This document shows, in pieces, positions 8,058-64,000 of a stretch of DNA of 64,000 nt. Numbering within the stretch: the first letter of the stretch is position 1; every line of letters begins with the position of its first letter. The notes below the pieces were generated by a model that worked only from the letters and a program-made list of their open reading frames with translations, ran no database searches and was not told where the DNA came from. The stretch is taken from NCBI RefSeq assembly GCF_003382365.1, contig NZ_QTSU01000001.1:2046001-2110000 (forward strand). The letters run 5' to 3'. Made by a program: the position numbers and the translations under genes. Source of the DNA: Lysobacter silvisoli. Its GTDB lineage: Bacteria; Pseudomonadota; Gammaproteobacteria; Xanthomonadales; Xanthomonadaceae.

Positions 8058-9309
8058 GCATCGTCACCCGTTCCGGCACCGGCTTGGTCTTATCGATCTT
8101 GGTCCACACCGGCATGGTGATGAAGAACAGGAAGTAGAACGCGGTGAGCACGCGGCCGACGATGGTCTCGACCGGGTCGGTACCCGGACCGGCGCCGATC
8201 TTGCCCAGCCACACAAAGCTGAAAGCGAACAGCATCAGCAGGCCCTTGGAGAGCATGCCGCGGTAGCGGTAGGACTTGACCTTGGCGCGGTCCAGCCACG
8301 GCACCAGGAACAGGATCGCGATCGCCGCGAACATCACCAGCACGCCGCCGAGCTTGTTCGGCACCACGCGCAACATCGCGTAGTACGGGGTGTAGTACCA
8401 CACCGGCTTGATGTGCTCCGGCGTCACCAGGCGGTTGGCTTCGGTGAAGTTGTCGTGTTCCAGGAACCAGCCGCCGAAGGCCGGGGCGAAGAAGATGATG
8501 AAGGCCGCGATCATCAGCAGGAAGCCCACGCCCACCAGGTCCTTGACCGTGTAGTAGGGGTGGAACGGGATCGCGTCCTTGGGCTTGGTGGCATCCCAAC
8601 GGTTGCCCTTCGGGCCCTTCTTGATGTCCACGCCGTCGGGGTTGTTGGAACCCACCTCGTGCAGCGCGCCCAGGTGCAGCACGACCAGCAGCAGCAGCAC
8701 CAGCGGCAGCGCGATCACGTGCAGGGCGAAGAAGCGGTTGAGGGTGGCGTCGCCGGGCAGGTAGTCGCCCATGATCCACTCGGTCAGGCCGTTGCCGATC
8801 ACCGGGATCGCGCCGAACAGCGAGATGATCACCTTGGCGCCCCAGAACGACATCTGGCCCCAGGGCAGCACGTAGCCCATGAAGGCTTCGGCCATCAGCA
8901 CCAGGTAGATCAGCATGCCCAGGATCCACACCAGCTCGCGCGGCTTCTGGTAGGAGCCGTACAGCAGGCCGCGGAACATGTGCAGGTACACGACGATGAA
9001 GAACAGCGAGGCGCCGGTGCTGTGCATGTAGCGGATCAGCCAGCCCCACTCCACGTCGCGCATGATGTACTCGACCGATGCGAAGGCTTCAGCCGCCGAG
9101 GGCTTGAAGTGCATGGTCAGGAAGATGCCGGTCACGATCTGGTTGACCAGCACCAGCAGCGCCAGCGAACCGAAGTAGTACCAGACGTTGAAATTCTTCG
9201 GCGCGTAGTACTCGGTCATGTGCTTGCGGTAGGCCGGCATCATGCCGGGCGCGCGCGCGGTGACCCAATCGAAGACGTTGTTGGCGGTACGGGTGATGAT
9301 GTTGGACAT
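8050..9309 (-). CDS. petB: Ubiquinol-cytochrome c reductase, cytochrome b subunit
   Basis: Central diheme subunit of the bc1 complex with quinol oxidation and quinone reduction sites. The 419-residue protein has the eight-helix layout. Two pairs of heme histidines are visible in RYMHSTGASLFF/VVYLHMFRG and FFALHVIALPL/VVLHLGALHE. LPWGQMSFWGA marks the Qo region. The usual PEWY of the Qo site reads PVWY here (KPVWYYTPYYAML), a variant I believe is common in beta/gammaproteobacteria. It is 3 bases downstream of petA and overlaps petC. Confidence 0.97.
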   Translation of the reverse strand: MSNIITRTANNVFDWVTARAPGMMPAYRKHMTEYYAPKNFNVWYYFGSLALLVLVNQIVTGIFLTMHFKPSAAEAFASVEYIMRDVEWGWLIRYMHSTGASLFFIVVYLHMFRGLLYGSYQKPRELVWILGMLIYLVLMAEAFMGYVLPWGQMSFWGAKVIISLFGAIPVIGNGLTEWIMGDYLPGDATLNRFFALHVIALPLVLLLLVVLHLGALHEVGSNNPDGVDIKKGPKGNRWDATKPKDAIPFHPYYTVKDLVGVGFLLMIAAFIIFFAPAFGGWFLEHDNFTEANRLVTPEHIKPVWYYTPYYAMLRVVPNKLGGVLVMFAAIAILFLVPWLDRAKVKSYRYRGMLSKGLLMLFAFSFVWLGKIGAGPGTDPVETIVGRVLTAFYFLFFITMPVWTKIDKTKPVPERVTMHD

Positions 9310-9312
9310 GGC

Positions 9313-9927
9313 TTACGCCGCTCCCTTGGCCGGGTCGACGCCGATCACGATGGTGGTGTCGTTCTCGTAGTGGTGCGGCGGCACCAGCAGGTTGGTCGGC
9401 GCGGGCACGCCCTGGAACACGCGGCCGGCCATGTCGAAACGCGACTTGTGGCAGGGGCAGAAGTAGCCGCCCTTCCACTCCGGATCGAACGGCTCGGGGC
9501 GGATCTCGGCCTTCATTTCCGGCGAGCAGCCCAGGTGGGTGCACAGGCCGACCAGGACCGAGATGTCCGGCTTGATCGAGCGCGTTTCGCCCTTGATGTA
9601 GTCCGGCTGCTGGTCCTTGTTCTCGGACTTGGGATCGCGCAGGTGGCTGTCCAGGGTGGGCAGCGCCTGCAGCACGGCCTGGGAGCGCTTGACGATCCAG
9701 ATCGGCTGACCGCGCCATTCCACGATCAGGCGCTGGCCTTCGGCCAGACCGGTGATGTCCTGGGTCACCGGAGCGCCGGCGAGCTTGGCGCGCGCGCTGG
9801 GGTTCCAGGACTTGATGAAGGGCACCGCCGCAAAACCGGCTCCGACTGCACCGACCACTGCCGTGGTCGCCGTCAGGAACCGGCGGCGGCCCGTATTGAT
9901 AGGATCGTTGACCCCTTGGTTGGCCAT
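9313..9927 (-). CDS. petA: Ubiquinol-cytochrome c reductase, Rieske iron-sulfur subunit
   Basis: Carries the [2Fe-2S] cluster that takes electrons from quinol. The 204-residue protein starts at ATG 9927, six codons inside the longest frame. It has a Tat-type signal anchor (GRRRFLTATTAVVG, residues 13-26). The two Rieske boxes are CTHLGC (129-134) and CPCHKS (157-162). First gene of petABC, with 3 bases to petB. The region 9928-10124 upstream holds no gene and probably the promoter; no clear -35/-10 pair was found. Confidence 0.97.
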   Translation of the reverse strand: MANQGVNDPINTGRRRFLTATTAVVGAVGAGFAAVPFIKSWNPSARAKLAGAPVTQDITGLAEGQRLIVEWRGQPIWIVKRSQAVLQALPTLDSHLRDPKSENKDQQPDYIKGETRSIKPDISVLVGLCTHLGCSPEMKAEIRPEPFDPEWKGGYFCPCHKSRFDMAGRVFQGVPAPTNLLVPPHHYENDTTIVIGVDPAKGAA

Positions 9928-10124: not shown

Positions 10125-11081
10125 TCAGCGCACCACGGCGGTGACGCCGCGATAGCGCTGCGCCAGCACCGCCACGCGCTGCACGTAGCGCTGGGTCTCG
10201 CTGTACGGCGGCACGCCGCGGTACTTGTCCACAGCGCCCTCGCCGGCGTTGTAGCCGGCCGCAGCCAGGGTCAGGTCGCCGTTGAAGCGCTTGAGCAACC
10301 AGGCCAGGTACTGCACGCCGCCCTGGATGTTCTGGCCGGCATCGAACGGGTTGGCCACGCCAAAGCGCCGCGCCGTGGCCGGCATCAGCTGCATCAGGCC
10401 CTGCGCGCCCACGCGCGAGAGCGCATTGGGGTTGTAGGCCGATTCGGCGTGGATGATCGCGCGCACCACCGCTTCCTCGACCCCGTGCTGGCGCGCGGCC
10501 GCGGCGATCTCGTCGCGGTAGGCGTCGGTGTTGAGGCGGATCGAGCCGAAATTGACCCCCGGCCGCGCCGCACAGGCGTAGCAGGTCTCCATGAAGCTGT
10601 AGCGGATGGTCCGCACCGCCGAGGCATTGGCCAGGCCTTGCGGCCGCTTGCTGGTGTAGTGGCGGACGCCGTCCTTGATATAGGAGTAGACCTGTCCCTG
10701 GACCAGGCGCGAGGCCGGCGCGGACGGCGGCGGCGCCACGCTGGCGACGGCCGGCGCCGCAACGGCGGGCGCGGGCGCGGCGGCCGGGGCGGACATGAAG
10801 GTGGCCGGCGGATTGGCGTGGATCGAGGCCGGCGAGCCCGCGACCGGGTTGGCCGGGGTGGCGGCGCCGGACGCGGCCGGTGCGGCCGGCGGCACGTAGG
10901 GCGCCGCGCGGCGGGGGCTGGGGCTGTACTGGCTGACCACGGTGCACTTGGCCCCGGGCACGCGCTTGCTGACGTAGCTGCGGTCGCCGGCGGCGGTCTC
11001 GCAACGGTATAGGGTGCCCGCCACGGCCGGCGCCATGGCCAGCAGGCAGATCGTCCCCAGCAGCAGTGAGCCCCCCCTCAT
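10125..11081 (-). CDS. Secreted lytic transglycosylase (SLT family) with DUF4124-like N-terminus
   Basis: A 318-residue exported protein that probably cleaves peptidoglycan glycan strands. The signal peptide is GGSLLLGTICLLAMAPAVAG. It is followed by a short DUF4124-like segment (TLYRCETAAGDRSYVSKR) and a Pro/Ala-rich linker to about residue 120. The SLT domain at about 190-318 has the catalytic glutamate E213 in IIHAESAYNP, then GLMQLMPATA and AAGYNAGEGAV. The gene is divergent from miaB with 151 bases between starts. It may serve wall turnover or insertion of envelope complexes; no partner is adjacent. Confidence 0.9.
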   Translation of the reverse strand: MRGGSLLLGTICLLAMAPAVAGTLYRCETAAGDRSYVSKRVPGAKCTVVSQYSPSPRRAAPYVPPAAPAASGAATPANPVAGSPASIHANPPATFMSAPAAAPAPAVAAPAVASVAPPPSAPASRLVQGQVYSYIKDGVRHYTSKRPQGLANASAVRTIRYSFMETCYACAARPGVNFGSIRLNTDAYRDEIAAAARQHGVEEAVVRAIIHAESAYNPNALSRVGAQGLMQLMPATARRFGVANPFDAGQNIQGGVQYLAWLLKRFNGDLTLAAAGYNAGEGAVDKYRGVPPYSETQRYVQRVAVLAQRYRGVTAVVR

Positions 11082-11232
11082 GGCGGCGAGTGTCCCCCTT
11101 TCGCGCGGCCCTTGCCAAGTCCTTGATTCGAAAACGTGACGACGGCCCGCGGGCGGCCGCTAGCGGCTAAACTGTCGCCCCTGCTCCACCCCTCCGGCGC
11201 GGATTAACCGCCGCCCTCCCCGGACCTAGGCC

Positions 11233-12642
11233 ATGACCGACCTGCACCCCCTGCCCACGGCGCCCGCCGCCGGCGCCGCCCAGCCCTCGCGGCCGGGCGC
11301 CAAGAAATTGTTCATCGAGACCCACGGTTGCCAGATGAACGAGTACGACTCGGCCAAGATGGCCGACGTGCTCGCCGCCAGCGACGGCCTCGAACTGACC
11401 CAGGACGCGTCCGAAGCCGACGTGATCCTGATCAACACCTGCTCGATCCGCGAAAAGGCGCAGGAGAAGGTGTTCAGCCAGCTCGGCCGCTGGAAGCAGC
11501 ACAAGCAGGGCGAACGCCAGGTCATCATCGGCGTCGGCGGCTGCGTGGCCTCGCAGGAAGGCGCGGCCATCGTCAAGCGCGCGCCCTACGTGGACCTGGT
11601 GTTCGGCCCGCAGACCCTGCACCGTCTGCCCGAGCTGATCCGCGCCAAGCGCGAAACCGGGCAGCCGCAGGTCGACATCAGCTTCCCCGAGATCGAGAAG
11701 TTCGACCGCCTGCCCGAGCCGCGCGCCGAAGGCCCCAGCGCCTTCGTCTCGATCATGGAAGGCTGCTCCAAGTACTGCTCGTTCTGCGTGGTGCCCTACA
11801 CCCGCGGCGAGGAAGTCAGCCGCCCGTTCGAGGACGTGCTGGTGGAAGTGGCGCAGCTGGCCGGCCAGGGCGTGCGCGAGATCAACCTGCTGGGGCAGAA
11901 CGTCAATGCGTATCGCGGCCCTTACGGAGAGGGTGAGATCGCAGATTTGGGTCTGCTGATCCGCACCATCGCCGAAATCGACGGCGTAGACCGCATCCGC
12001 TTCACCACCTCGCATCCGCTGGAGTTCAGCGACTCGCTGGTGGAGGCCTATCGCGACGTGCCGCAGCTGGCCGACTACCTGCACCTGCCGGTGCAGGCGG
12101 GCAGCGACCGCGTGTTGGCGGCGATGAAGCGCGGCTACACCGCGCTGGAGTTCAAGCAGAAGATCCGCAAGCTGCGCGCGGTGCGGCCGAACATCTCGAT
12201 CTCCTCGGACTTCATCGTCGGTTTCCCGGGCGAGACCGAGGCCGACTTCGACAAGACCATGAAGCTGATCGAGGACGTGGGCTTCGACCAGTCGTTCTCC
12301 TTCATCTATTCGCGCCGCCCCGGCACCCCGGCCGCCGACCTGGAAGACAGCGTGTCCAGCGAGGAAAAGCACGCGCGCCTGTCGCGCCTGCAGGCGGCGA
12401 TCAACGCCAACGCGGCCAGGATCTCGCAGGCCATGGTCGGCAGCGTGCAACGCATCCTGGTCGAGGGGCCTTCGCGCAAGAACCCGAACGAGCTCACCGG
12501 CAAGACCGAGAACATGCGTTCGGTGAACTTCCCCGCGCCGCCGCGCCTGGTCGGCCAGTTCGTCGACGTGGTCATCACCGAAGCCCTGTCCAACTCGCTG
12601 CGCGGCCGGGTGCTGACCGGCCAGGACCAGGACGCGGCTTAA
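11233..12642 (+). CDS. miaB: tRNA-2-methylthio-N6-dimethylallyladenosine synthase
   Basis: Radical SAM methylthiotransferase that converts i6A37 to ms2i6A37 in tRNA. The 469-residue protein has the UPF0004 cysteines C33, C70 and C104 for one [4Fe-4S] cluster. The radical SAM motif CSKYCSFC is at C178/C182/C185. A C-terminal TRAM region begins near [10 protein letters not shown]. About 20 extra Ala/Pro residues precede the first domain. In many gammaproteobacteria miaB lies next to phoH-ybeY; here those genes are 9.3 kb downstream on the same strand. Confidence 0.97.
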
Positions 12643-12656
12643 ACACGGAGCTCCGC

Positions 12657-13154
12657 ATGGATCGCGACTTCCACATCCGCGAAATCGGCCCGGACGAGTT
12701 CGACCGGGTCTGGCCGATCTTCCACGAAGTGCTGGCGCGCGGGGAAAGCTACAACTACCCCGCCGAGCTGTCGCTGGAACGTGCGCGCGAGATGTGGACC
12801 GCGCCGCCCTACCGCTGCTTCATCGCCGAGGGCGACGACGGCGACATCCTGGGCTGCTACAAGCTCGGCCCCAACTACGCCGGCCGCGGCGACCACATCG
12901 CCAACGGCAGCTACATGGTGGCCGAACGCTACTGGGGCCAGGGCGTGGGTTCGGCGCTGTGCGAGCACTCGCTGGCGCAGGCGCGCCAGGCCGGCTTTGC
13001 CGCCATGCAGTTCAACTACGTGGTCAGCAGCAACGCGGCCGCGGTGCATCTGTGGCTCAAGCACGGCTTCCAGATCGTCGGCCAGATTCCCGGCGCGTTC
13101 CGCCACGTGCAGCTGGGCCTGGTGGATGTGTACGTGATGCACCGCCTGCTGTAA
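12657..13154 (+). CDS. GNAT family N-acetyltransferase
   Basis: A 165-residue acetyltransferase of the GNAT fold. The acetyl-CoA binding region reads GSYMVAERYWGQGVGSALCEHSL at about residues 84-106, with the (Q/R)GxG(A/S) element QGVGSA. The following segment (NYVVSSNAAAVHLWLKHGF) is the usual family helix-strand. The substrate cannot be inferred. It starts 14 bases after the miaB stop, so it is probably cotranscribed with miaB. Confidence 0.9.
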   Translation: MDRDFHIREIGPDEFDRVWPIFHEVLARGESYNYPAELSLERAREMWTAPPYRCFIAEGDDGDILGCYKLGPNYAGRGDHIANGSYMVAERYWGQGVGSALCEHSLAQARQAGFAAMQFNYVVSSNAAAVHLWLKHGFQIVGQIPGAFRHVQLGLVDVYVMHRLL

Positions 13155-52353: not shown

Positions 52354-53262
52354 TCAGGCGCCAGGCTTTGCCGAGTCTGGCGCCAGGGTTGCGTCCAGGG
52401 CATCGCGCCAATCGGGGAAACGCAGGCCGTAATCGGCCTGCAGGCGCGCGGTGTCGAGCACGGAGTACGCGGGGCGCTGCGCGCACGTGGGGTAATCGGC
52501 GGTGGTGATGGGGTGCACCGTCGGCCGGCGCGGGATCAGGCCCAAGGCATAGGCGCGGTCGAAGATGGCTTCGGCGAAACCGTGCCAGGTGGTTTCGCCC
52601 GCGGCCACCAGGTGGCGCACCGCCGGCGCGGCGATGCCCTGGCGCAGGATTTGCGCGCTGGCGTCGGCGATCAGCCAGGCCGGCGTCGGGCAGCCGCGCT
52701 GGTCGGCGACCACGCGCAGTTCGTCGCGCTCCGCGCCCAGGCGCAGCATGGTGCGCAGGAAGTTGCCGCCATGGGTGGCGTAGACCCAGGCGGTGCGCAG
52801 GATCAGGTGACGCGCGCCGCTGGCCGCGATTTCCTGTTCGCCGGCCAGCTTGCTGGCGCCGTATACGCCCAGCGGCGCGGTCGGGTCGTCCTCGCGGTAG
52901 GGGCGCGTGCCGCTGCCGTCGAAAACGTAGTCGGTGGAGTAATGCAGCAGCGCCGCGCCGCGCGCGGCGCAGGCGCGCGCCAGCCGGCCCGGCCCTTCGG
53001 CATTGGCGCGGAACGCGGCCTCGCGCTCGTCTTCGGCACGGTCCACCGCGGTGTAGGCGGTGGCGTTGACCACCACGTTCGGCGCGACCCGCGCGAGCAA
53101 GGGTTCGATCGCGTCGAAGTCGGTCAGATCCAGTCGCTCGCAGGCGCTGCCGTCGCCCAGCTCGCCGCTGCGCGTGGTCACGGTCAGCTCGCCCAGCGGC
53201 GCCAGGCTGCGGCGCAGTTCGTGGCCGACCTGGCCGTTGCCGCCGAGCAGCAGCAGCCTCAC
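52354..53262 (-). CDS. rfbD: dTDP-4-dehydrorhamnose reductase
   Basis: Last step in dTDP-L-rhamnose synthesis, using NAD(P)H. The 302-residue SDR-type protein has the nucleotide-binding motif LLLGGNGQVGHELRR, the catalytic YGASKLAGE (Tyr, Lys), and STDYVFDG. The GTG start at 53262 overlaps the rfbC stop (GTGA). Last gene of rfbBACD. Confidence 0.94.
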   Translation of the reverse strand: MRLLLLGGNGQVGHELRRSLAPLGELTVTTRSGELGDGSACERLDLTDFDAIEPLLARVAPNVVVNATAYTAVDRAEDEREAAFRANAEGPGRLARACAARGAALLHYSTDYVFDGSGTRPYREDDPTAPLGVYGASKLAGEQEIAASGARHLILRTAWVYATHGGNFLRTMLRLGAERDELRVVADQRGCPTPAWLIADASAQILRQGIAAPAVRHLVAAGETTWHGFAEAIFDRAYALGLIPRRPTVHPITTADYPTCAQRPAYSVLDTARLQADYGLRFPDWRDALDATLAPDSAKPGA

Positions 53263-53816
53263 GGCGCGTATACCGGCAGGCGGTCCTCGCTTACCTCGGC
53301 CAGCAGCGGCGCGCGCGCATCCTTGTCCGACAGCGAAGGCTCGCTGACCGGCCAGTCGATCGCCAGCGCCGGGTCGTCCCAGCGGATGCCGGCATCGGCC
53401 TTGGCGTCGTAGGTGGCGGTGCACAGGTAGGTGAACACCGCGCGTTCGCTGAGCACGCAGAAGCCGTGGGCGAAACCTTCCGGTATCCAGAAATGGCGCT
53501 TGTTCTCGGCGCTGAGCAGCACCGCGGTCCAGCGGCCGTAATGCGGCGAACCGCGACGGATGTCCACCGCCACGTCCCAGACCTCGCCCTCGATCACCGA
53601 CACGTACTTGCCCTGCGGATTGGGCCATTGGTAGTGCAGTCCGCGCAGCACGCCGCGCGCCGACGAGGACACGTTGCCCTGGACGAAGTTAGGGCTCAGG
53701 CCGTGCGCGGCCAGCTTGTCGCGGTTGAACGACTCGAAGAAGTAACCGCGCGCATCGCCGAACACCTGCGGTTCGATCACCACGCAGCCCGGCAGGTCGG
53801 TTTCGATCAGCTTCAC
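53259..53816 (-). CDS. rfbC: dTDP-4-dehydrorhamnose 3,5-epimerase
   Basis: Epimerises C3 and C5 of the 4-keto sugar. The 185-residue cupin-type protein has [10 protein letters not shown], the catalytic-histidine segment [10 protein letters not shown], and the tyrosine region [12 protein letters not shown]. Starts within the rfbA stop (ATGA). Confidence 0.95.
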
Positions 53817-54697
53817 GGCACGAACCCGCGCTTGGCCAGGCCCAGCAAGTATTGGCCGTAGCCGTTCTTGGCCAGCGGCGCGGCCAGTTCGGTCAGGCGG
53901 TCGGCGTCGATCCAGCCGTTATTCCAGGCGATTTCCTCGGGGCAGCAGATGCGCAAGCCCTGGCGCGCCTCGATGGTTTCGATGAAGTTCGACGCTTCCA
54001 GCAGCGACTGGTGGGTGCCGGTGTCGAGCCAGGCGTAGCCGCGGCCGAGCTGCTCCAGGTGCAGCGAGCCCTCGTCCAGGTAACGCCGGTTGAGATCGGT
54101 GATCTCCAGCTCGCCGCGCGGCGAGGGCTTGAGCTCGGCGGCGAAATCGCTGGCGCGGCCGTCGTAGAAATACAGGCCGGTGACCGCGTAGTTGGAACGC
54201 GGCTGCGCGGGCTTCTCTTCCAGCCCGATCACCCGGCCTTCGCCGTCGAATTCGGCGACGCCGTAGCGCTCGGGATCGTTGACCCAGTAGCCGAACACCG
54301 TGGCGCCCTGCTCGCGTTCGTCGGCGCGCTTGAGCATGGCCGTGAGGCCAGGCCCGTGGAAGATGTTGTCGCCCAGCACCAGGCAGCTGGGGCCGCCGGC
54401 GAGGAACTCGCGGCCGATCAGGAAGGCCTGCGCCAGCCCGTCGGGGCTGGGCTGCGCGGCGTACTCGATGTTCATGCCCCAGCGCGAGCCGTCGCCGAGC
54501 AGGTGGCGGAACAGCGCCTGCTCGTGCGGGGTGTTGATGATCAGCACGTCGCGGATGCCCGCCAGCATCAGCACGCTGAGCGGGTAATAGATCATCGGCT
54601 TGTCGTACACCGGCAACAGCTGCTTGCTGATCGCCTGGGTGATCGGATACAGCCGGGTGCCGGAGCCGCCGGCCAGGATGATGCCCTTACGGTTCAT
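53813..54697 (-). CDS. rfbA: Glucose-1-phosphate thymidylyltransferase
   Basis: Makes dTDP-glucose from dTTP and glucose-1-phosphate, first step of the pathway. The 294-residue protein starts [18 protein letters not shown], the nucleotide-binding signature, and contains [18 protein letters not shown] and [19 protein letters not shown]. It starts 9 bases after the rfbB stop. Confidence 0.97.
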
Positions 54698-54706
54698 GGA
54701 AAGTCC

Positions 54707-55759
54707 TCAGGCCTGGCCGATGCGCTCGAGACGGTAGCTGCCGTCCAGCACGCGTTGCACCCAAGGCTGGTGCTCCAAATACCAGTCCACGGTACGCGCC
54801 ATGCCCTGCTCGAAGGTCACGGTCGGCGCCCAGCCCAGTTCGCCCTGCAGCTTGGACGCGTCGATCGCGTAGCGGCGGTCGTGGCCCGGGCGGTCCTTGA
54901 CGTAGGTGATCAGCGATTCGCGCGCGCGGCCGTCGGCCAGCGGGCGGCGTTCGTCCAGCAGCTTGCAGATGGTCTTGACCACCACGATGTTCTGACGCTC
55001 GGCGTCGCCGCCGACGTTGTAGGTCTCGCCCAGGCGGCCGGCTTCGAGCACGCGGCGGATCGCGGCGCAGTGGTCGCCCACGTACAGCCAGTCGCGCACG
55101 TTGAGGCCGTCGCCGTAGACCGGCAGCGGCTCGCCGGCCAGGGCCTTGGCGATGATCAGCGGGATCAGCTTTTCCGGGAACTGGTAGGGGCCGTAGTTGT
55201 TCGAGCAGTTGGTGGTCAGCACCGGCAGCCCGTAGGTGTGGTGGAAGGCGCGGACCAGATGGTCGGACGCGGCCTTCGATGCCGAGTACGGCGAGTTCGG
55301 CGCGTAGGGCGTGGTTTCGCTGAACTTGCCGCTGTCGCCGAGGCTGCCGTAGACCTCGTCGGTGGACACGTGCAGGAAGCGGAACGCGTCCCGGCCGGGC
55401 GCATCCAGCGACTTCCAGTAGTCGCGGCTGCATTCCAGCAGGCTCAGCGTGCCGACCACGTTGGTGTGGACGAAGGCGGCCGGGCCGTCGATGGAACGGT
55501 CGACGTGGCTTTCGGCAGCGAAGTTGATCACCGCATCGGGGCGGTGCTCGGCGAGCAGGCGCGAGACCAGCGCGGCGTCGCCGATGTCGCCCTGCACGAA
55601 CACGTGGCGCGCATCGCCGTCCAGCACGGACAGGGTGTCGAGGTTGCCGGCGTAAGTCAGCGCGTCCAGGTTCACCACCTTGACGCCGCGCTGCACCGCT
55701 TCGAGTACGAAATTACCGCCAATGAAACCGGCGCCGCCGGTGACCAACCAAGTAGACAC
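54707..55759 (-). CDS. rfbB: dTDP-glucose 4,6-dehydratase
   Basis: Oxidises and dehydrates dTDP-glucose to the 4-keto-6-deoxy sugar. The 350-residue SDR enzyme has TGGAGFIGGNFV, the FAAESHVDRSI motif, and the catalytic YSASKAASDH. First gene of rfbBACD. The L-rhamnose donor feeds LPS, exopolysaccharide or glycosylation; no glycosyltransferase is in the window. Confidence 0.97.
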   Translation of the reverse strand: MSTWLVTGGAGFIGGNFVLEAVQRGVKVVNLDALTYAGNLDTLSVLDGDARHVFVQGDIGDAALVSRLLAEHRPDAVINFAAESHVDRSIDGPAAFVHTNVVGTLSLLECSRDYWKSLDAPGRDAFRFLHVSTDEVYGSLGDSGKFSETTPYAPNSPYSASKAASDHLVRAFHHTYGLPVLTTNCSNNYGPYQFPEKLIPLIIAKALAGEPLPVYGDGLNVRDWLYVGDHCAAIRRVLEAGRLGETYNVGGDAERQNIVVVKTICKLLDERRPLADGRARESLITYVKDRPGHDRRYAIDASKLQGELGWAPTVTFEQGMARTVDWYLEHQPWVQRVLDGSYRLERIGQA

Positions 55760-56180: not shown

Positions 56181-57377
56181 TCAGCCCTGCGCGTCCCGCG
56201 CCGCCACCGCCGCCTTCACCGCCTCGGTGTCCTGCCCCAGCATCGGCGCGGCGAACGGCGCCGGCCCCGGGGTGCGGCCGAATTTGATCGACTGCGCCAC
56301 CGCGCGGTAGCGGCCGACCTGCGGGTGCTCCAGCGTGCCGACGATGCCTTCGGCCAGCACCTGCGGATGCTCGAACATGTCCTCGATGCGGCGCGCGGCC
56401 GCGCACGGCACCTCGTCGCCGAACAAGGCCTCCCATTCCGGCGCGCCGCGTTGCGCCAGCGCCTGGTGCAGGCGCGGCACGATCTCGGCCGCGTGTTCGG
56501 CGCGCTTGCGCACGCTGTCGTAGCGCGGATCGGCGGCCAGCGCGTCCAACCCGGTCTTGGCGCACAGCGCCTTCCAGAAGCGCGGGGTGTTGGCGGAGAT
56601 GTAGATGTGGCCGTCACGGGTGGGATGGATGCCGGTGACGCCGCCCGAACGCATGTCGCGGCCGATGTCCAGCGACTCGCCTTCGGCCCAGATCATCCGC
56701 GCCGATTGCATGGTCAGCGCGCTGCGCAGCAGCGACACGCCCACGAACTGGCCCAGGCCGCTGCGCTCGCGTTCGTACAGCGCCGAGGACACGCCCGCGG
56801 CCAGCAAGGCGGCGGTGTAGTAGTCCACGACCGAGCCGTAAATGATTTCCGGCGGCCCGCCGCGGCGTCCCTGCAGTGCGCACATGCCGGTCATGGTCTG
56901 CAGCACCTGGTCGTAGCCGGCCTTGTCCTTCATCGGGCCGGTCTCGCCATAGCCGGTCACCGCGCAATAGATCAGGCGCGGATTGATCAGCTGCAGGCGT
57001 TCGAAATCGATGCCCAGCCGCGGCGGCACGCCGGGGCGGAAGTTGTGCACCAGCACGTCGGCGTCGCGGACCAGGCGCAGCAGCACGGCGTGGTCGGCGG
57101 CCTGCTTGAGGTCCAGCACGATGCCGCGCTTGCTGCGGTTCACGCCCAGGAAGGCGCGGCTTTCGCTGGGCAGGGTCGAAGGGTATTGGCGCAGGTTGTC
57201 GCCGTCGGGCGGCTCGATCTTGATCACCTCCGCGCCCTGGTCGGCCAGCAGCGCACAGCCGTAGGGGCCGGCGATGTAGGCGCTGAGGTCGAGCACGCGC
57301 ACGCCGGCCAGCGGACCGCCGGGACTGCGCGCGGCGGCGGGCTCAGGCGGAAAGGCGTCCATACGCTGCGCGTCCAT
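56181..57377 (-). CDS. Class III (CaiB/BaiF family) CoA transferase
   Basis: A 398-residue CoA transferase. The N-terminal signature is VRVLDLSAYIAGPYGCALLADQGAEVIKIEPP. The candidate catalytic aspartate is D156 in AGYDQVLQ, at the place of D169 of formyl-CoA transferase. GGVTGIHPTRDGHIYI is typical of the second half. The substrate is not inferable. It follows the GH127 gene by 108 bases and may be the last gene of that operon, or a separate unit. Confidence 0.88.
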   Translation of the reverse strand: MDAQRMDAFPPEPAAARSPGGPLAGVRVLDLSAYIAGPYGCALLADQGAEVIKIEPPDGDNLRQYPSTLPSESRAFLGVNRSKRGIVLDLKQAADHAVLLRLVRDADVLVHNFRPGVPPRLGIDFERLQLINPRLIYCAVTGYGETGPMKDKAGYDQVLQTMTGMCALQGRRGGPPEIIYGSVVDYYTAALLAAGVSSALYERERSGLGQFVGVSLLRSALTMQSARMIWAEGESLDIGRDMRSGGVTGIHPTRDGHIYISANTPRFWKALCAKTGLDALAADPRYDSVRKRAEHAAEIVPRLHQALAQRGAPEWEALFGDEVPCAAARRIEDMFEHPQVLAEGIVGTLEHPQVGRYRAVAQSIKFGRTPGPAPFAAPMLGQDTEAVKAAVAARDAQG

Positions 57378-57485
57378 GAGGTTCCTGACGGGGGTCTGCG
57401 GTCACTGTGCGCCGCGCTGCGGCAAAGAAACAGGCAGGCGGCATAGGTTCTGACGCCACAAAATCTTGCTTGGTGCCGCCGCGAT

Positions 57486-59333
57486 TCACGGCGACGGCTC
57501 CGGCGCCAGGCCCATCCAGGTCAGGCGCCAGGCGCCGTCGACGCGGCCGCCGGCGGCGTAATACGGCGCGAACACCAGCGGCTCGCGCCGCAGCGGCCGC
57601 AGCACCAGGGTCGGCAGGCCGTCCAGCGGTTCGCCCGGCGCCAGCCAGTCGCGCTGCGGCAGGGCCGGCAGCTTCAGCGTTTCCTCGGTCTTGTAACCGT
57701 CGATCAGCGTGGTGGCGTAAACCAGCGGGCCGTAGGTGAGGCCCAAGTATTCGTAGCGCAACACTTGCTGCTGCACCTGACTGCCGTCGGGCGCGCGCGA
57801 CTCCTGCACGTTGCGGTTGAGCGCGCGGTGGGTGCGCGGGGCCATCGGGAATTCGGCCAGCACTTCATCGCCGTCGCGCCAGACGCGTTCCAGCACCCAT
57901 TCGCTGCCGGGTGCCGCGGCGGCGGCGCCCTCACCCGCCATGGCGACGCTCGCACCCTCGGCCCACGACGGCACGCGCAGCTTCAGCGCGAAGCGGGCCG
58001 GGCCGTCCACGCCGATGCGCAGGCGCACGCGGCCGTCGAAGGGGTAGTCGGTGATCTGCTGCAGACGCACGCGTCCCGCGCCGGGCAGATCCAGCATCGC
58101 CTCGCCCGGCCCGTACACGCGCACGGCGACCGTGGCCTCGCCCTCGCAGGCATAGGCGATCGCCGGCAACTCCTCCAGCGCCATCGCGCCGCTGGATTTG
58201 CAGCAGCGCCAATACGTGGTGTGCACGCGGCGCCCGTTGGGGAACACGTAGTAGCACCAGTCCTCGCCATTGGGGGCCTGCGCGGCGAGCAGGTCGTTGT
58301 AGGCGGAGCGCTCGATCTCCTCGGCGTACACTGGCTCGCCGGTGATGGCCAGCAGTTCGCGGTTGAGCTGGATCCAGGCCAGAGTCGAGCAGGTTTCCAC
58401 GTAGCCCTGCGGATTGAACGCGCCCGGCGCGTTGAACACCTCGCGCGAGCGATGGGCGACGCCGCCCCAAGGTCCGCCGCCCAAGGTGAGGTGGCGTTCG
58501 CGGATGCTGCGCCACAAACCCAGCACCGCCTCGCGGTAGGCGGGCACGCCGGTCGCGCGGTGCAGCTTGGCCAGGCCGACCAGATTCCAGGCCAGTTGGT
58601 AGGCCTTGCCCGTCGCGATCTCGGCCGCGTCGGCGCCGGCCAGCGCGCGCGGCAGCAGCGCCAGTTCGGGGTGGCGGTCGGCCTGGACCAGGACGTTCAG
58701 CCCCAGATCCAGGTAGCGCCGCTCGCCGGTGGCGAAGTAGAGCTCGGCCGCGGGGTCCATCAGCACCGTCGCCGACAGGCCGTGGTGGTTGCCCAGATCG
58801 GTGATGTCGATGCCCTGGTCCAGCGCCTGCGCGCACAGCTCGCCGATGCGGCGCGCGGCCTGCAGATAGCGCGGTTCGGGGAAGTGGCGGTGGATCTCCA
58901 GAAACCCCAGGATCAGATACGCGTGGGTCCAGATGTCCCAGGTGCGCACGCTGGGCGCGCCGTCCCAGCTCACCGGCTTGGGCGGCTGCTTGCGCATGAA
59001 GCGGCGCTCGGGGGCGTAGGTGCCCAGGTAGCCGTCGTCTTCCTGGGTCGAGACCAGGAAATCGGCGACGCGGCGCAGGCGCGCCAGCAGCGCGGCGTCG
59101 CCGGAGCGCGCGGCGGCCTTGGCCGCGGCGACCATCCATTTGCCGGCGTGCTCGCCGTACCAGTCGCCTTCGCGATTGGCCGCGCGCGCGGCCGGTGCGA
59201 ACAACGCGATCGCGGGGCTGGTTTCGTCGACGATGAAATGCGACAGGCGGCCATTGAGGTTGGCCGACAGCGCTTCGCCGAGCAGACCCTGCAGCTGCAC
59301 GTCCACGCGCGGTTCGTACTTGGAATCGGTCAT
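57486..59333 (-). CDS. GH127 family glycoside hydrolase, beta-L-arabinofuranosidase type (DUF1680)
   Basis: A 615-residue enzyme with no signal peptide, so cytoplasmic. The (alpha/alpha)6 part starts with SHFIVDETSPAIALFAPA and contains YGEHAGKWMVAAAKAA and DDGYLGTY. The zinc/thiolate site of GH127 is seen as E313-T-C315 (YVETCSTLAW) and C377-C378 (YWRCCKSSG), matching the ExC and CC pattern of HypBA1. It is expected to remove L-arabinofuranose or a similar sugar from imported glycans. The stop lies 108 bases before the CoA-transferase gene, the start 4 bases after the GH-like/SUMF gene. Confidence 0.88.
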   Translation of the reverse strand: MTDSKYEPRVDVQLQGLLGEALSANLNGRLSHFIVDETSPAIALFAPAARAANREGDWYGEHAGKWMVAAAKAAARSGDAALLARLRRVADFLVSTQEDDGYLGTYAPERRFMRKQPPKPVSWDGAPSVRTWDIWTHAYLILGFLEIHRHFPEPRYLQAARRIGELCAQALDQGIDITDLGNHHGLSATVLMDPAAELYFATGERRYLDLGLNVLVQADRHPELALLPRALAGADAAEIATGKAYQLAWNLVGLAKLHRATGVPAYREAVLGLWRSIRERHLTLGGGPWGGVAHRSREVFNAPGAFNPQGYVETCSTLAWIQLNRELLAITGEPVYAEEIERSAYNDLLAAQAPNGEDWCYYVFPNGRRVHTTYWRCCKSSGAMALEELPAIAYACEGEATVAVRVYGPGEAMLDLPGAGRVRLQQITDYPFDGRVRLRIGVDGPARFALKLRVPSWAEGASVAMAGEGAAAAAPGSEWVLERVWRDGDEVLAEFPMAPRTHRALNRNVQESRAPDGSQVQQQVLRYEYLGLTYGPLVYATTLIDGYKTEETLKLPALPQRDWLAPGEPLDGLPTLVLRPLRREPLVFAPYYAAGGRVDGAWRLTWMGLAPEPSP

Positions 59334-59337
59334 GCGC

Positions 59338-61527
59338 TCAGCCCGCGTCCACGACGCAGCGGAAGCCGATGCAGCCCGAGCGGTCCTTGCTCGGCGCCAT
59401 CAGCAGGTACTTGCCGTGCTGGTCCAGGCGATAGGCCTGGGGGAAATACCAGTGCGAGGTCTGCGGCTGGTAGCTGCTGCCGCCGCGCAGGATCGCCGCG
59501 CGCGTGTGCTCGTCGTGGTACTCGTCGGTCCACTGCCAGACGTTGCCGACCAGGTCGAGCACGCCGTAGGGGCTGGCGCCTTGCGGGTGCGCGTCGACGT
59601 CGTCGGGCGCGCGCAGGCGGCGGCCGCGGTTGGGCGCGGGCACCGCGTCGGCGCGCCAGTCGTCGCCCCAGGGGTAGCGGCGGCCGTCGCCGCCCTGCGC
59701 GGCGTACTGCCATTCCCATTCGCGCGGCAGGCGCTTGCCGGCCCAGTGCGCATAGGCGCGCGCGTCCTCGATCGAGACCCAGGTCACCGGCTTGCGCTCC
59801 CAGCCCGGCGGCGGCGCCCCGTCGACCCAGTCGCGCAGGTAGTTGTGGGCGTCGCGCGGGCGGTAGCCGCTGGCCTGGACGAAGCGCAGGTACTGCGCGT
59901 GGGTCACCGGCGTGCGGTCGATATGGAACGGCGTCATGCGCATGCGCCGGCGGTGATGGCGGCGCGCGCTGGGCTCCCAGGGGTATTGCACGTCCACGCC
60001 GTCCCAGGTCTGGCCCTCGATCTCGACGCCGCCGACGATGAAATCGAAATCGCCACCGGGGACCGCGATCATGTCCTCCGGCGCTTCGGCCGCGGGCGCG
60101 GTACGCTCGATCGGCAACAACTGCTGCGGCAGCGCGCGCCATTGCGCGGAGTAGTCGCGCAGCGGCGTGGCCGCCTGCGCGGCCATGCGCGCGAGCAGAT
60201 CGTCCAGGCCTGCGAGCGTGGCGCCGGGCGCCAGCGCGGCGACCGCGCCGAAGCCGCGGCCTTCCAACGCGAACTCGAACACCGCGCGCTCGCCGTCCAG
60301 CCGCGGCGACAGCGGCACGCCGTTCCAGACGTCGTAGTAGCGCGCGCCGTCCGTATGCGGCACCGACAGCTGCTCGCCGCCTACCTCGTACTCGTTGCGG
60401 TTCACCAGCGTCCACAGGGTGACGCCCTCGCGCGGGAAGCGGCTGGCGAACACGCCGGCCTGCAGAGTGCGCTCGTAGGGTCGCCAATCGGGGCTGACCA
60501 TGCAGGCGGCGAAGCCGCGCTCGATCGCGGCGATGCGGCGCAGCGATTCGGCGTCGCGCGGCGTGAGCTGGTTCCACAGCCCCCAGATGTTCTCCCAGGC
60601 GTTGTAGCCCACGCCGTTGAAGAAGATGTACTGCAGGTCGTGGTTGCGGTCGCGGCCCCAGCGGTTCTCGTAGTTGATCATGTGGCGCGGTTCCAGCCAC
60701 TTGAACTTGGCCACCGGCGGCACGACTTCGTTGGGCGCCTTCTTGCCCCAGCTCTGCACGTTCCAGATCAGGGCCTCCTCGGCGCTGATCGTGGATTCGG
60801 GCTGCAGCACCACCGGGTGGCCCAGCGCGTCGCAGGCGTCGAAGAACGCGCGCGGCACGCCGTTGTAGGTGTCGCCGTTGATGCCGTCGGCGCCGACGGC
60901 GACCACCAGCTCGGCGATGGACTCCCAATCCTGGCGGCCGTCGTCGCGGGTGCCGTTGTCCCAGGGCATGGTCGGCAGCAGCACGCGCACGCCGCGACGG
61001 TGGAAGTCGGCGATCGCGCCGCGCAGGCCCTCCAGGCCGCCGGGCAGGTCGCCGGCCAGGTCGAACTGGTTGCGGTCGTCGATGCCGATGTTCGGGTAGA
61101 CGTGCCAGATCAGCACGCTGTCGATGCCGCCGTAGCGGCGCTCCAGGTCGTCCAGGTAACGGTCCACGGTGTAGCGGCCGGCGACGGGATCGTAGAAGTA
61201 GCGGTCCTCGGCCATCATCTGCGCATGGACGAAGTTGCGCTGCGCCCACTGCAGTTCGGGGCGGCGGTAATGGCGGTCGTCGTAGCCGATGCGGATCAGG
61301 TGCTCGCGGCGCCAATCCACCAGCTCGGCGATCCAGTCGTCGACGCTGCCGTCCACGTCCATCTTCCAATGGCCGATCTCGGCGAAGGGCCAGCCCGGCG
61401 CCTTGCCCGGCAGCGGCAGGTAGCGCTGCGTGGTCACGTGCGAAAACTTGTACTCGTGGCGGACCACGCGGCGTTCGTCGCCGTCGTCGCGCCGCGTGTC
61501 GTGGGGGGAATCGGGCGTGGGGCTCAT
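59338..61527 (-). CDS. Fusion of a GH-like TIM-barrel domain and an FGE-sulfatase (SUMF1) domain
   Basis: A 729-residue cytoplasmic protein (no signal). Residues 1-430 look like a TIM-barrel hydrolase: SVLIWHVYPNIGID, GVRVLLPTMPWDNG, VGADGINGDTYNGVP near residue 215, and LQPESTISAEE near 242, followed by a beta-rich stretch. Residues 480-729 are an FGE-sulfatase domain (EDMIAVPGGDF, PVTHAQYLRFVQ, LPREWEWQYAA, DLVGNVWQWTDEY, LRGGSSYQPQ, GCIGFRCVV). The two cysteines used by formylglycine-generating enzyme (YCYRYRC in human FGE) are absent, so sulfatase activation is unlikely. It probably acts in sugar metabolism with GH127. The family of the N-terminal part was not recognised. Confidence 0.78.
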   Translation of the reverse strand: MSPTPDSPHDTRRDDGDERRVVRHEYKFSHVTTQRYLPLPGKAPGWPFAEIGHWKMDVDGSVDDWIAELVDWRREHLIRIGYDDRHYRRPELQWAQRNFVHAQMMAEDRYFYDPVAGRYTVDRYLDDLERRYGGIDSVLIWHVYPNIGIDDRNQFDLAGDLPGGLEGLRGAIADFHRRGVRVLLPTMPWDNGTRDDGRQDWESIAELVVAVGADGINGDTYNGVPRAFFDACDALGHPVVLQPESTISAEEALIWNVQSWGKKAPNEVVPPVAKFKWLEPRHMINYENRWGRDRNHDLQYIFFNGVGYNAWENIWGLWNQLTPRDAESLRRIAAIERGFAACMVSPDWRPYERTLQAGVFASRFPREGVTLWTLVNRNEYEVGGEQLSVPHTDGARYYDVWNGVPLSPRLDGERAVFEFALEGRGFGAVAALAPGATLAGLDDLLARMAAQAATPLRDYSAQWRALPQQLLPIERTAPAAEAPEDMIAVPGGDFDFIVGGVEIEGQTWDGVDVQYPWEPSARRHHRRRMRMTPFHIDRTPVTHAQYLRFVQASGYRPRDAHNYLRDWVDGAPPPGWERKPVTWVSIEDARAYAHWAGKRLPREWEWQYAAQGGDGRRYPWGDDWRADAVPAPNRGRRLRAPDDVDAHPQGASPYGVLDLVGNVWQWTDEYHDEHTRAAILRGGSSYQPQTSHWYFPQAYRLDQHGKYLLMAPSKDRSGCIGFRCVVDAG

Positions 61528-61560
61528 GGCAGGGTTCGCAGGGGAGGTGTCGGTAAGGAC

Positions 61561-62451
61561 TCAGGCCGTGGCGGCGGCGAGCAAGGCATCGACCTCGGCG
61601 CGGCTGGGCACGCTGGTCTGCGCACCGGCGCGGGTGCAGGCCAGGGCCGAGGCCGCACTGGCGCGGCGCAGCGCCGCAGCGCCGTCCTCGCCCGCGGCCA
61701 GCGCCGCCGCCAGTGTGCCGCAGAACGTGTCGCCGGCGGCGGTGGTGTCCACGGCGACCACGGCGAACGCGTCCTGGCGCCAGCGGCGGCCGTTCAGGCG
61801 TGCGCAGCAGCCGCGTGCGCCCAGGGTCACGATCACGTTGGGCACGTCCAGGCGGTCCAGCGCGGCATCCACGTCGCCATCGACGCCGGTCAGCACGGCC
61901 AGTTCGCCTTCGTTGACGACCAGCACGTCGACCGCGGCCAGCAGTTCGGCGGGCAGGCGCTGCGCGGGCGCGGCGTTGAGCACGACCTGCACGCCGGCCG
62001 CGCGCGCGGCCCGGGCCCAGGCCGTAACGGTCGGCAACGGCGTTTCCAACTGCAACAACAGATGGCTGACGCCCTCCAGTGCGGGCAGATGCTCGGGACG
62101 CAGCGCGGCGTTGGCGCCGGGGGCCACGGTGATCGCGTTCTCCCCCGCGTCGGACACGCAGATGAAGGCGGTGCCGGTGGCGCCGCGCACGCGCAAGGCG
62201 TGCAGGCGCACACCGGCATCGCGCAGCGAGGCTTCGATGGCGGCGCCGTGGCCGTCGTCGCCGAACGCGGCCAGCAACCGGGTGGGCGCGCCGCCCGCAT
62301 GCGCGCAGGCCACCGCCTGGTTGGCGCCCTTGCCGCCGGGATAGGTGGCGAAGTCGTAGCCGAGCACCGTTTCGCCGGGCGCCGGCACATGCGCGGCGCG
62401 GACCACGAAATCCAGATTGGCCGAGCCGGCCACCAGCACCGCGCCGCTCAT
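61561..62451 (-). CDS. rbsK: Ribokinase-like PfkB family sugar kinase
   Basis: A 296-residue kinase. The N-terminal PfkB motif is YPGGKGANQAVA. The C-terminal motif is DTTAAGDTFCG, with catalytic Asp. Together with AGSANLDFV it fits ribokinase best. In this operon it may phosphorylate another pentose released by the upstream hydrolases, for example arabinose, but this is not decided. ATG 62451 lies after the serine hydrolase in an ATGA. Confidence 0.88.
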   Translation of the reverse strand: MSGAVLVAGSANLDFVVRAAHVPAPGETVLGYDFATYPGGKGANQAVACAHAGGAPTRLLAAFGDDGHGAAIEASLRDAGVRLHALRVRGATGTAFICVSDAGENAITVAPGANAALRPEHLPALEGVSHLLLQLETPLPTVTAWARAARAAGVQVVLNAAPAQRLPAELLAAVDVLVVNEGELAVLTGVDGDVDAALDRLDVPNVIVTLGARGCCARLNGRRWRQDAFAVVAVDTTAAGDTFCGTLAAALAAGEDGAAALRRASAASALACTRAGAQTSVPSRAEVDALLAAATA

Positions 62452-63761
62452 GGCGTCAGCCCCTGGTAGACCAGCGCGTAGTAGCGCTTGGCCAGGCGCG
62501 GCAGGTCGGCGCGGTCCTCGCGCGGCAGGTGCTGCAGCATCAGGATCGCGAGCATCCGCTCCTGCGGGTCGATCGTGTAGCTGGTGGACGCGGCGCCGGA
62601 CCAGCCGAACTGGCCGACCGACCCGAGCTGGCCGCGTCGCGCGGGGTCCAGCACCACGTAGCCGCCCAGACCGAAGCCCTCGGCGTCGCTGTATTGGTTC
62701 ACCGGCGGGTCCAGCATGGTCAGGTGGTTGCGCAGCATCAGCTCGACGGTCTTGCGGCCCAGCACCGTGTGGCCGTCGAGCCGACCGCCGTTCAACAGCA
62801 TCTGGCAGAAACGCGCGTAATCGCCGGCGGTGGAGTACAAGCCGCCGGCGCCGCTGGGGTAGGCGTTGAGCGGCGCGCCGGGTTCGCGCGCGCTGGGACC
62901 GTCGTCCAGGCGCAGCTTGCCGTCCGCGCCCATCGTGGTGATGTCGACCACGCGCGAGCGCTGCGCCGCGGGCACGTTGAAGCCGGTGTCGCGCATGCCC
63001 AGCGGCGCGAACAGGCGCTGTTGCAGGAAGGCCTCGAAGCTCTGCCCGCTGCGGACTTCCACCAGTCGCGCCAGCACTTCGGTGGCCGCACCGTCGTAGC
63101 CGAAACGGGTGCCCGGATCGGCGGCCAGCGGCGCGCGGCTCAGGCGCTCTACGAAGCCACGCAGATCGCGGGCGCCATGCGGGTCCGCGAGCGTCTGCGC
63201 GCGTCCTGCGGCCTCGTCGCCAGGCCGGCCAGCAGGAAATCCAGCGGTGTGGGTAAGCAGATGGCGCAGCGTGATCGGCCGCTGCGCGGGACGCGCCACG
63301 GCGCCGCCGGCCAGCACCTGCGGGGCCTCGAATTCGGGCAAGTAGCGCGAGACCGGATCGTCCAGCGTGAGCCTGCCCTCCTCCAGCAGCATCAGCACCG
63401 CCACCGAGGTCACGGTCTTGCTCATCGAGTAGATGCGGAAGATGTCGTCGCGCCGCAAGGGTTCGCTGCGCGCCAGATCGCGATAGCCGTAGGCGCTCCA
63501 GTCGACGACGCGGCCGTTGCGCGCGATCAGGACCACGCCGCCCAGGTAGCCGTCGGCACCGGTGGCCTCGCGCATGAACGCGTGCAGCCGCTGCAGGCGC
63601 TGCGCGGAGTAGCCTTGCCGTTCCGGCGCGGCGACCGGCAAGGACGCACCCTCGCCCGCTCGCGCCGCCGGTCCGGCGCAGGCCAGGGCCAGCAGCGTCA
63701 GGAAAAAAACGCCGCTGCGGACACGGGAATCCGCAGCGGCCAGTCGAGGGTGATGCGCCAC
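62448..63761 (-). CDS. Secreted serine hydrolase of the beta-lactamase/PBP-related (class C, EstB-like) family
   Basis: A 437-residue exported protein with signal peptide SGVFFLTLLALACAGPAARA. The catalytic SxxK is SMSK in FRIYSMSKTVTSVAVL. The second motif (YxN) is probably YDG/YSD-like and a third-motif HxG-type segment lies near FGWSGAAST. LRHLLTHTAGFP and FGYDGAATEVLARLVE are typical of the family. It could be an esterase, amidase or peptidase; a true beta-lactamase is not implied. Its stop lies in an ATGA with the kinase gene. Confidence 0.85.
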   Translation of the reverse strand: MAHHPRLAAADSRVRSGVFFLTLLALACAGPAARAGEGASLPVAAPERQGYSAQRLQRLHAFMREATGADGYLGGVVLIARNGRVVDWSAYGYRDLARSEPLRRDDIFRIYSMSKTVTSVAVLMLLEEGRLTLDDPVSRYLPEFEAPQVLAGGAVARPAQRPITLRHLLTHTAGFPAGRPGDEAAGRAQTLADPHGARDLRGFVERLSRAPLAADPGTRFGYDGAATEVLARLVEVRSGQSFEAFLQQRLFAPLGMRDTGFNVPAAQRSRVVDITTMGADGKLRLDDGPSAREPGAPLNAYPSGAGGLYSTAGDYARFCQMLLNGGRLDGHTVLGRKTVELMLRNHLTMLDPPVNQYSDAEGFGLGGYVVLDPARRGQLGSVGQFGWSGAASTSYTIDPQERMLAILMLQHLPREDRADLPRLAKRYYALVYQGLTP

Positions 63762-63771
63762 GTCGTACGTT

Positions 63772-64000
63772 TCAGAACTTGATCGTGTGGGTGAGCGAGA
63801 TGGTGCGGCCGCGGCCGGCCCAGTAGTTCTGGAAGCCGCCCGGCGGCTGCGACCAGCTCAGGATGTACTGCTTGTCCAGCAGGTTCTCGATGCCGAGCGA
63901 GAACTTGCCCCAGCGCTCGGTCTCGTAGTTGAAGCCCAGGTCGAACAGGGTGTAGCCCTCGGTCTTCTCGGTGAAGCTGAAACGCTGGCCGTCGAAGGGT
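63772..64000 (-). CDS. TonB-dependent receptor, C-terminal part (5' end outside window)
   Basis: The last 75 residues of an outer-membrane receptor: strand FDLGFNYETERWGKFSLGIENLLDKQYILS, then NYWAGRGRTISLTHTIKF. The NLLDKQY signature and the terminal Phe are typical of TonB-dependent receptor barrels. It ends 10 bases before the serine hydrolase gene, which suggests one operon. Siderophore or glycan specificity cannot be told from this end. Confidence 0.88.
   Translation of the reverse strand, partial: PFDGQRFSFTEKTEGYTLFDLGFNYETERWGKFSLGIENLLDKQYILSWSQPPGGFQNYWAGRGRTISLTHTIKF

Follow-up and report, generated by a model that had tools for sequence, protein, structure and literature searches.

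A conserved nine-gene cluster of Lysobacter silvisoli as a candidate catabolic system for a carboxylated furanoside

Several described systems share parts with the gene cluster analyzed here, a set of nine genes in Lysobacter silvisoli that begins within a 64,000-nucleotide stretch of DNA (the window; bases 2046001–2110000 of contig 1) and extends into the next 32 kb of the contig, which were also examined. Polysaccharide or glycoside utilization loci built around a TonB-dependent receptor (CUT/PUL type) have in common with it the receptor, an exported esterase, an inner-membrane transporter, intracellular glycosidases, a kinase and a local regulator. The E. coli yegTUV genes, whose enzymes are without assigned function, provide a transporter, an ADP-ribosylglycohydrolase-family enzyme and a PfkB kinase, as found in members of the cluster family, and are controlled by one regulator that has just one target in the genome (PMC10819704). 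Cysteine glycosidases of families GH127 and GH146 (HypBA1, BT1003) share with the GH127 protein of the cluster a zinc site of one glutamate and three cysteines; such a Cys3-Glu site, with a cysteine as nucleophile, is part of the cysteine glycosidase mechanism (PMC10850190). The sialic acid transporter SiaT (5nv9) holds the carboxylate of its substrate via Ser60, Thr63 and Arg135 (PMC5931594), and equivalents of Ser60 and Arg135 are kept in the symporter of the cluster, Thr63 being replaced with serine in most cases. Finally, a coenzyme A (CoA)-transferase that feeds a lyase of family PF03328 is also found in itaconate, citramalate and malate pathways (e.g. RipABC, Rv2498c), and an enzyme of this lyase family splits both (R)-hydroxymethylglutaryl-CoA (HMG-CoA) and (S)-citramalyl-CoA (PMC6689899). 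We propose that the nine genes make up a complete catabolic system whose substrate would be a small furanoside with a carboxylate and ester decoration, a reading to which we assign a probability of about 0.5.

All genes of the cluster are encoded leftward, on the minus strand; coordinates beyond 64000 are given on the window scale and lie outside the window. In order, they are a CitE-type (CitE/HpcH) lyase (69822–70670; PF03328, 147 bits), a SiaT-like sodium symporter (SSF; 67276–69825; PF00474), a LysR regulator (67195–66314; PF03466), a TonB-dependent receptor (PF00593/PF07715, 95 bits) that starts at about 66045 (ATG) or at 66153 (GTG) and whose C-terminal end occupies 63772–64000 of the window, an exported family VIII-type carboxylesterase termed SerH (62448–63761; PF00144, 244 bits), a ribokinase-like PfkB sugar kinase (61561–62451; PF00294, 177 bits), a fusion protein termed FUS (59338–61527), in which an FGE-sulfatase match is confined to residues 484–725, a GH127-family glycosidase (57486–59333; PF07944/PF20736) and a type III CoA-transferase (56181–57377; PF02515, 396 bits). 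The identities proposed in the initial annotation for the genes of the window were each borne out by Pfam (CoA_transf_3, GH127_cat, FGE-sulfatase, PfkB, Beta-lactamase and TonB receptor), and its five spacings between receptor and CoA-transferase (10, -4, 33, 4 and 108 bases) agree exactly with the coordinates of the open reading frames. Its suggestion to look upstream for a transporter and a regulator was well founded, as symporter and LysR are both located just past the window edge, where the cluster runs on via these two genes and the CitE-type lyase to position 70670. The CoA-transferase beyond the 108-base gap belongs to the cluster too. By contrast, the gene that follows it at a distance of 421 bases (dTDP-glucose dehydratase-like; 55759–54707) is outside the conserved set.

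The cluster is a real unit, and the earlier view of its genes as one conserved system holds. When 84,980 species genomes were searched with FUS, 121 relatives were obtained, and 80 loci were kept, most of which display the same gene order (CitE, SSF, LysR, receptor, SerH, PfkB, FUS, GH127, CoA-transferase). Receptor and CoA-transferase were each counted in 76 of these loci, GH127 in 74, SSF and PfkB in 73 each, LysR in 69, CitE in 68 and SerH in 59 (raw numbers, which include losses at contig ends). Of 149 sampled genomes from the family, 22 contain FUS, and exactly these 22 contain this GH127, a co-occurrence that is partly due to joint inheritance because the two genes adjoin. Stronger evidence comes from the survival of the set in rearranged form: it is retained in other orders or on other strands in Sphingomonas (L064, L075), Opitutae (L063, L065, L070, L077), Paraglaciecola (L073, L074) and one Neomarinimicrobiota assembly (L081). 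The hosts are soil and water bacteria of several phyla. A full-length FUS search of 398 genomes of the phylum returned only four true relatives, including that of the genome itself, while the other listed matches were to FGE domains.

Between lineages, parts of the cluster are exchanged for non-homologous ones while the steps are kept. The esterase step is filled by three families; loci devoid of SerH carry another esterase, namely PF00756 in Burkholderiales, Opitutae and Paraglaciecola, PF00135 in Sphingomonas L064, and related hydrolases in Neomarinimicrobiota. The initial annotation had held that the occurrence of FUS without GH127 would speak against a common system. Four loci with sufficient flanking sequence are indeed devoid of GH127 (L063, L073, L074, L081), yet every one of them has genes of the ADP-ribosylglycohydrolase family (PF03747) instead, and we thus read these cases as substitution rather than as refutation. 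An ADP-ribosylglycohydrolase gene is absent from those Opitutae clusters that possess GH127, and in L126 (3404–7006) both domains are joined in one protein of 1200 amino acids. LysR is replaced with LacI in Opitutae, and the symporter with an ABC transporter in Neomarinimicrobiota. The CoA-transferase of Opitutae is only about 28% identical and still adjoins CitE, and in L132 (Neomarinimicrobiota) the citrate lyase genes CitF and a CitD-CitE fusion adjoin FUS on the other strand.

Further arrangements were noted around these loci. The fused L126 gene adjoins a ureide-permease-like transporter, a PfkB kinase, an exported FUS variant of 916 amino acids and a class II aldolase. L132 and L133 are similar contigs of one Neomarinimicrobiota assembly in which FUS is accompanied by an ABC transporter and a pair of ADP-ribosylglycohydrolase genes; only one of the contigs has the citrate lyase genes next to FUS. 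In about seven loci (L042, positions 10464–13037; also L019, L031, L039, L041, L043 and L068) an extra gene of about 850 codons is inserted between FUS and GH127; its product has ThuA and cytochrome c domains at the ends and, by inspection, a quinoprotein propeller-like middle part, which hints at an optional sugar oxidation. In L065, an Opitutae locus, a gene for an exported protein of the GH13 alpha-amylase family (8378–9892) separates FUS from the LacI regulator, and genes of a mannosylglycerate-hydrolase-like protein and of the GlcNAc 2-epimerase family are present near one Paraglaciecola cluster (L073, 519–3156).

GH127 and SerH have their characteristic residues preserved. GH127 matches the catalytic and middle Pfam domains of its family with 130 and 64 bits, both above cut-off, and the zinc-site residues E313, C315, C377 and C378 (within YVETCS and RCCK stretches) are conserved in 75 proteins. 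Among solved structures, 6ex6 and the arabinofuranosidase 4qjy are closest to it, and the model for aceric acid hydrolase (NF049879) gave 85 bits at a cut-off of 950. In SerH, the family VIII motifs S112xxK115, Y222 and W386xG (W386–G388) are conserved, the top solved relatives are esterases, and the N-terminus resembles a signal peptide by inspection. The best solved relatives of the kinase are ribokinases, with 263.9 bits for the ribokinase model TIGR02152, which is below its cut-off of 299.65. The cytoplasmic location ascribed earlier to GH127, FUS and the kinase is in line with the lack of signal peptides on inspection.

FUS consists of an alpha-amylase/GH27-like barrel with a beta domain (residues ~58–432) and an FGE-like domain (residues 484–725). 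The N-terminal part has no match in Pfam, PF00128 included, save for one sub-cut-off match to an unrelated family, and its description relies on AlphaFold models (mean predicted local distance difference test score (pLDDT) of 77 for the whole protein and 74 for the N-terminal domain alone). In a fold search, the top match of the barrel was to GH13 (neopullulanase 1j0j; Z 17.0, 311 residues, 4.2 Å); many GH13 chains matched with Z values of 14–17 over about 300 residues, closely followed by GH27-type alpha-galactosidases. All 81 sequences compared share four carboxylates, D219, E244, E287 and E312. In the model, D219 lies at the end of strand 4 and E244 at that of strand 5, as candidate counterparts of the GH13 catalytic pair (Asp at strand 4, Glu at strand 5). 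We infer that the N-terminal barrel is a glycosidase. Searches with the same part of FUS also detected weak matches (30–36%) in Verrucomicrobiota (L127, 9420–13247; L111–L125), mostly in proteins of about 1300 amino acids, one of which bears a low-scoring DUF6259 domain; these proteins and FUS possibly belong to a wider superfamily.

The C-terminal domain of FUS is matched by PF03781 (FGE-sulfatase, 129 bits) and, in Foldseek, by FGE and SUMF2, and it includes a stretch, SHWYFPQAYRLDQHGKYLLMAP, that hardly varies between Lysobacter and Verrucomicrobia. In an alignment with S. coelicolor FGE, however, the copper cysteines fall on S691 and P696 of FUS, both of which are invariant in 43 sequences. 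Since the copper cysteines are absent, this domain is not an FGE of known mechanism. A function as sulfoxide synthase of the EgtB/SenA type was considered and rejected: scores were 73 bits versus 420 for SenA and 64 versus 360 for EgtB, they came from the FGE-like domain only, and a DinB domain is absent.

The initial annotation had pictured the cluster as a route for the uptake and breakdown of a glycan or glycoside. As a description of a system this stands, but it is incomplete, because a CoA-transferase and a CitE-type lyase that are equally conserved indicate an organic-acid half. The CoA-transferase has its catalytic Asp156 within a conserved GYDQVLQ stretch, and human succinate-hydroxymethylglutarate CoA-transferase (SUGCT) is among the solved structures closest to it; for the CitE-type lyase, malyl-CoA lyase is among the closest. 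The symporter, which has an extra exported N-terminal domain, finds its nearest solved relative in SiaT (254 bits), to which it is closer than to the monocarboxylate transporter SMCT1. Ser60, Thr63 and Arg135 of SiaT correspond to S395, S398 (serine for threonine) and R471, with S395 and R471 present in 74 of 74 sequences, whereas Thr58 and Gln82, which bind the glycerol tail in SiaT, correspond to N393 and N417. The retention of the carboxylate-binding residues points to an acidic compound as the one imported.

Transcriptional control of the cluster is likely to involve LysR itself. The gap between LysR and the receptor contains, at 66232–66248 of the minus strand, the sequence CTAGTCTCTGAACATAG, a CTA-N11-TAG site of the LysR type that is kept in more than 40 relatives and has its sole exact match in the genome here. 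A wider LysR regulon, sought as a clue to the substrate, was not apparent, as sites with up to three mismatches (31+33) were not in excess over those of a reversed control (29+37). A second element is found at the junction of receptor and SerH, where a terminator-like hairpin of 12 bp with a T tail on the coding strand (63740–63711) lies just past the receptor stop codon, within the first codons of SerH. A strong hairpin is present at this junction in 53 of 69 relatives compared with 4 of 69 controls from inside genes, and its sequence has diverged. We read it as a putative attenuator or processing site that would yield more receptor than enzymes. Because this conserved hairpin interrupts the set, the single transcript that had been deduced from the short spacings is not established.

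Based on gene content, conserved motifs and predicted folds, we infer the following substrate and order of steps. The receptor would carry the furanoside over the outer membrane, the exported esterase would strip off its acyl group in the periplasm, and the SiaT-like symporter would take the acidic glycoside into the cytoplasm. There, GH127, or the ADP-ribosylglycohydrolase-family enzyme of other lineages, would release a furanosyl unit. The amylase-like barrel of FUS may cut a second glycosidic bond, probably of the alpha type, with the FGE-like domain perhaps acting as a lid or in binding, and the released pentose would be phosphorylated by the ribokinase-like kinase. The 3-hydroxy-acid left over (of the malate, citramalate, hydroxymethylglutarate or citrate type) would receive CoA from the CoA-transferase, and cleavage by the CitE-type lyase would then yield acetyl-CoA and a keto acid. 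LysR would govern the cluster from one site.

Different readings of the same genes have to be weighed against this proposal. If GH127 had its classical specificity, the cluster might serve in the use of plant cell walls and act on beta-L-arabinofuranosides or on the aceric acid of rhamnogalacturonan II, with the other genes handling side-chain fragments. The preserved catalytic residues of GH127, its relationship to 6ex6 and 4qjy and the root or soil origin of many hosts are compatible with such a role, which we nevertheless consider unlikely given the low score with the aceric acid hydrolase model, the absence of any further rhamnogalacturonan II enzyme among the cluster proteins (Pfam) and the presence of the cluster in Paraglaciecola and a Neomarinimicrobiota assembly; moreover, the ribokinase-like kinase and the CoA-transferase/lyase pair would be left unexplained. 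Alternatively, CoA-transferase and lyase may be the core of an organic-acid operon. The esterase would then act outside the cell on varied glycosides and release from them a hydroxy-acid (hydroxymethylglutarate or citramalate, for example), which the symporter would import, and glycosidases and kinase would just clear the attached sugars. The nearly constant presence of an exported esterase, the carboxylate site of the symporter, the resemblance of the CoA-transferase to human SUGCT and the capacity of a CitE-like enzyme to cleave HMG-CoA and citramalyl-CoA (PMC6689899) all fit, but GH127 (or ADP-ribosylglycohydrolase), FUS and the kinase match the acid genes in constancy and thus do not look accessory, and the symporter is closer to SiaT than to SMCT1. 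We therefore regard this second reading as rather doubtful. Apart from the Pfam name FGE-sulfatase, which would suit a sulfated-glycan system with a domain activating sulfatases, little speaks for such a function; it is contradicted by the invariant Ser691 and Pro696 in place of the copper cysteines and by the lack of a sulfatase among the cluster proteins, and is extremely improbable. Much the same applies to a set of unrelated neighbors merely kept together: close Xanthomonadales do share much gene order, but the idea is refuted by the occurrence of the same set in other orders and strands with functional swaps in distant lineages, and by its patchy distribution (22 of 149 genomes in the family).

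The furanoside system proposed here also has to face several adverse points. Specificity within PF03328 is broad and not readable from sequence, and hence the acid is not assignable (PMC6689899). Arsenosugars, rhamnogalacturonan II fragments, hydroxymethylglutaryl glycosides, citrate esters and agrocinopine-like compounds were weighed as substrates and none was singled out. The activity of FUS is deduced from a fold with a pLDDT of about 75 and from conserved carboxylates, with a poorly modeled loop (residues 245–283) by the putative active site, and the constancy of FUS itself does not count as independent evidence, since the loci were collected by searching with FUS. The swap between GH127 and ADP-ribosylglycohydrolase was seen in three lineages; the L075 cluster has no recognizable esterase within it; and the CitF/CitE pair of L081/L132 is on the opposite strand and is missing next to the other FUS copy (L133) that this assembly carries.

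Genes for dTDP-rhamnose synthesis are located immediately downstream of the cluster (52354–55759; translations inspected). Beyond the window, an apparent contractile tail or injection-system cluster (L003, 81948–96002 on the window scale) was recognized by inspection of a sheath-like protein of 702 amino acids and the genes that follow it.

A nine-gene set with interchangeable parts that spans several phyla implies a common natural compound for which no linked degradation pathway was found. Because the set predicts chemistry (a furanose, an ester, a carboxylate and a 3-hydroxy-acid), this compound is searchable, and the LysR site offers a ready reporter for an inducer search. FUS, in turn, combines a glycosidase-like domain outside the Pfam families with a clear example of the FGE fold being reused. 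It is tempting to go further and to speculate, as a tentative possibility, that FUS founds a new bifunctional family, with a non-Pfam amylase-like barrel cleaving an unusual acidic furanoside and a copper-ligand-free FGE-like domain with a chemistry of its own, and that the cluster defines an unrecognized, widespread environmental compound made up of a pentofuranose, a second sugar and a 3-hydroxy-acid.

In agreement with the initial annotation, which had recognized no known locus of this kind, a search of open-access papers, which leave out most of the subscription literature, returned no account of this gene combination and nothing relevant on DUF6259 or on GH127 together with FGE. Compared with CUT/PUL loci, the cluster adds a CoA-transferase, a CitE-type lyase and a fusion enzyme that fits into none of the described families, and it is devoid of a surface endo-acting enzyme. 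The yegTUV genes lack the receptor, esterase, FUS, GH127, CoA-transferase and lyase present here. Unlike HypBA1 and BT1003, the GH127 protein is predicted to be cytoplasmic, is paired with FUS and scores far under the aceric acid hydrolase cut-off. The symporter differs from SiaT in the glycerol-tail residues, both of which are changed to asparagine, and in its additional N-terminal domain. Pathways of the RipABC/Rv2498c type include a MaoC-type hydratase that is missing from the cluster, whose acid genes are instead coupled to glycoside uptake. By analogy with these systems, the cluster may work like a TonB-linked utilization locus joined to a CoA-dependent organic-acid pathway.

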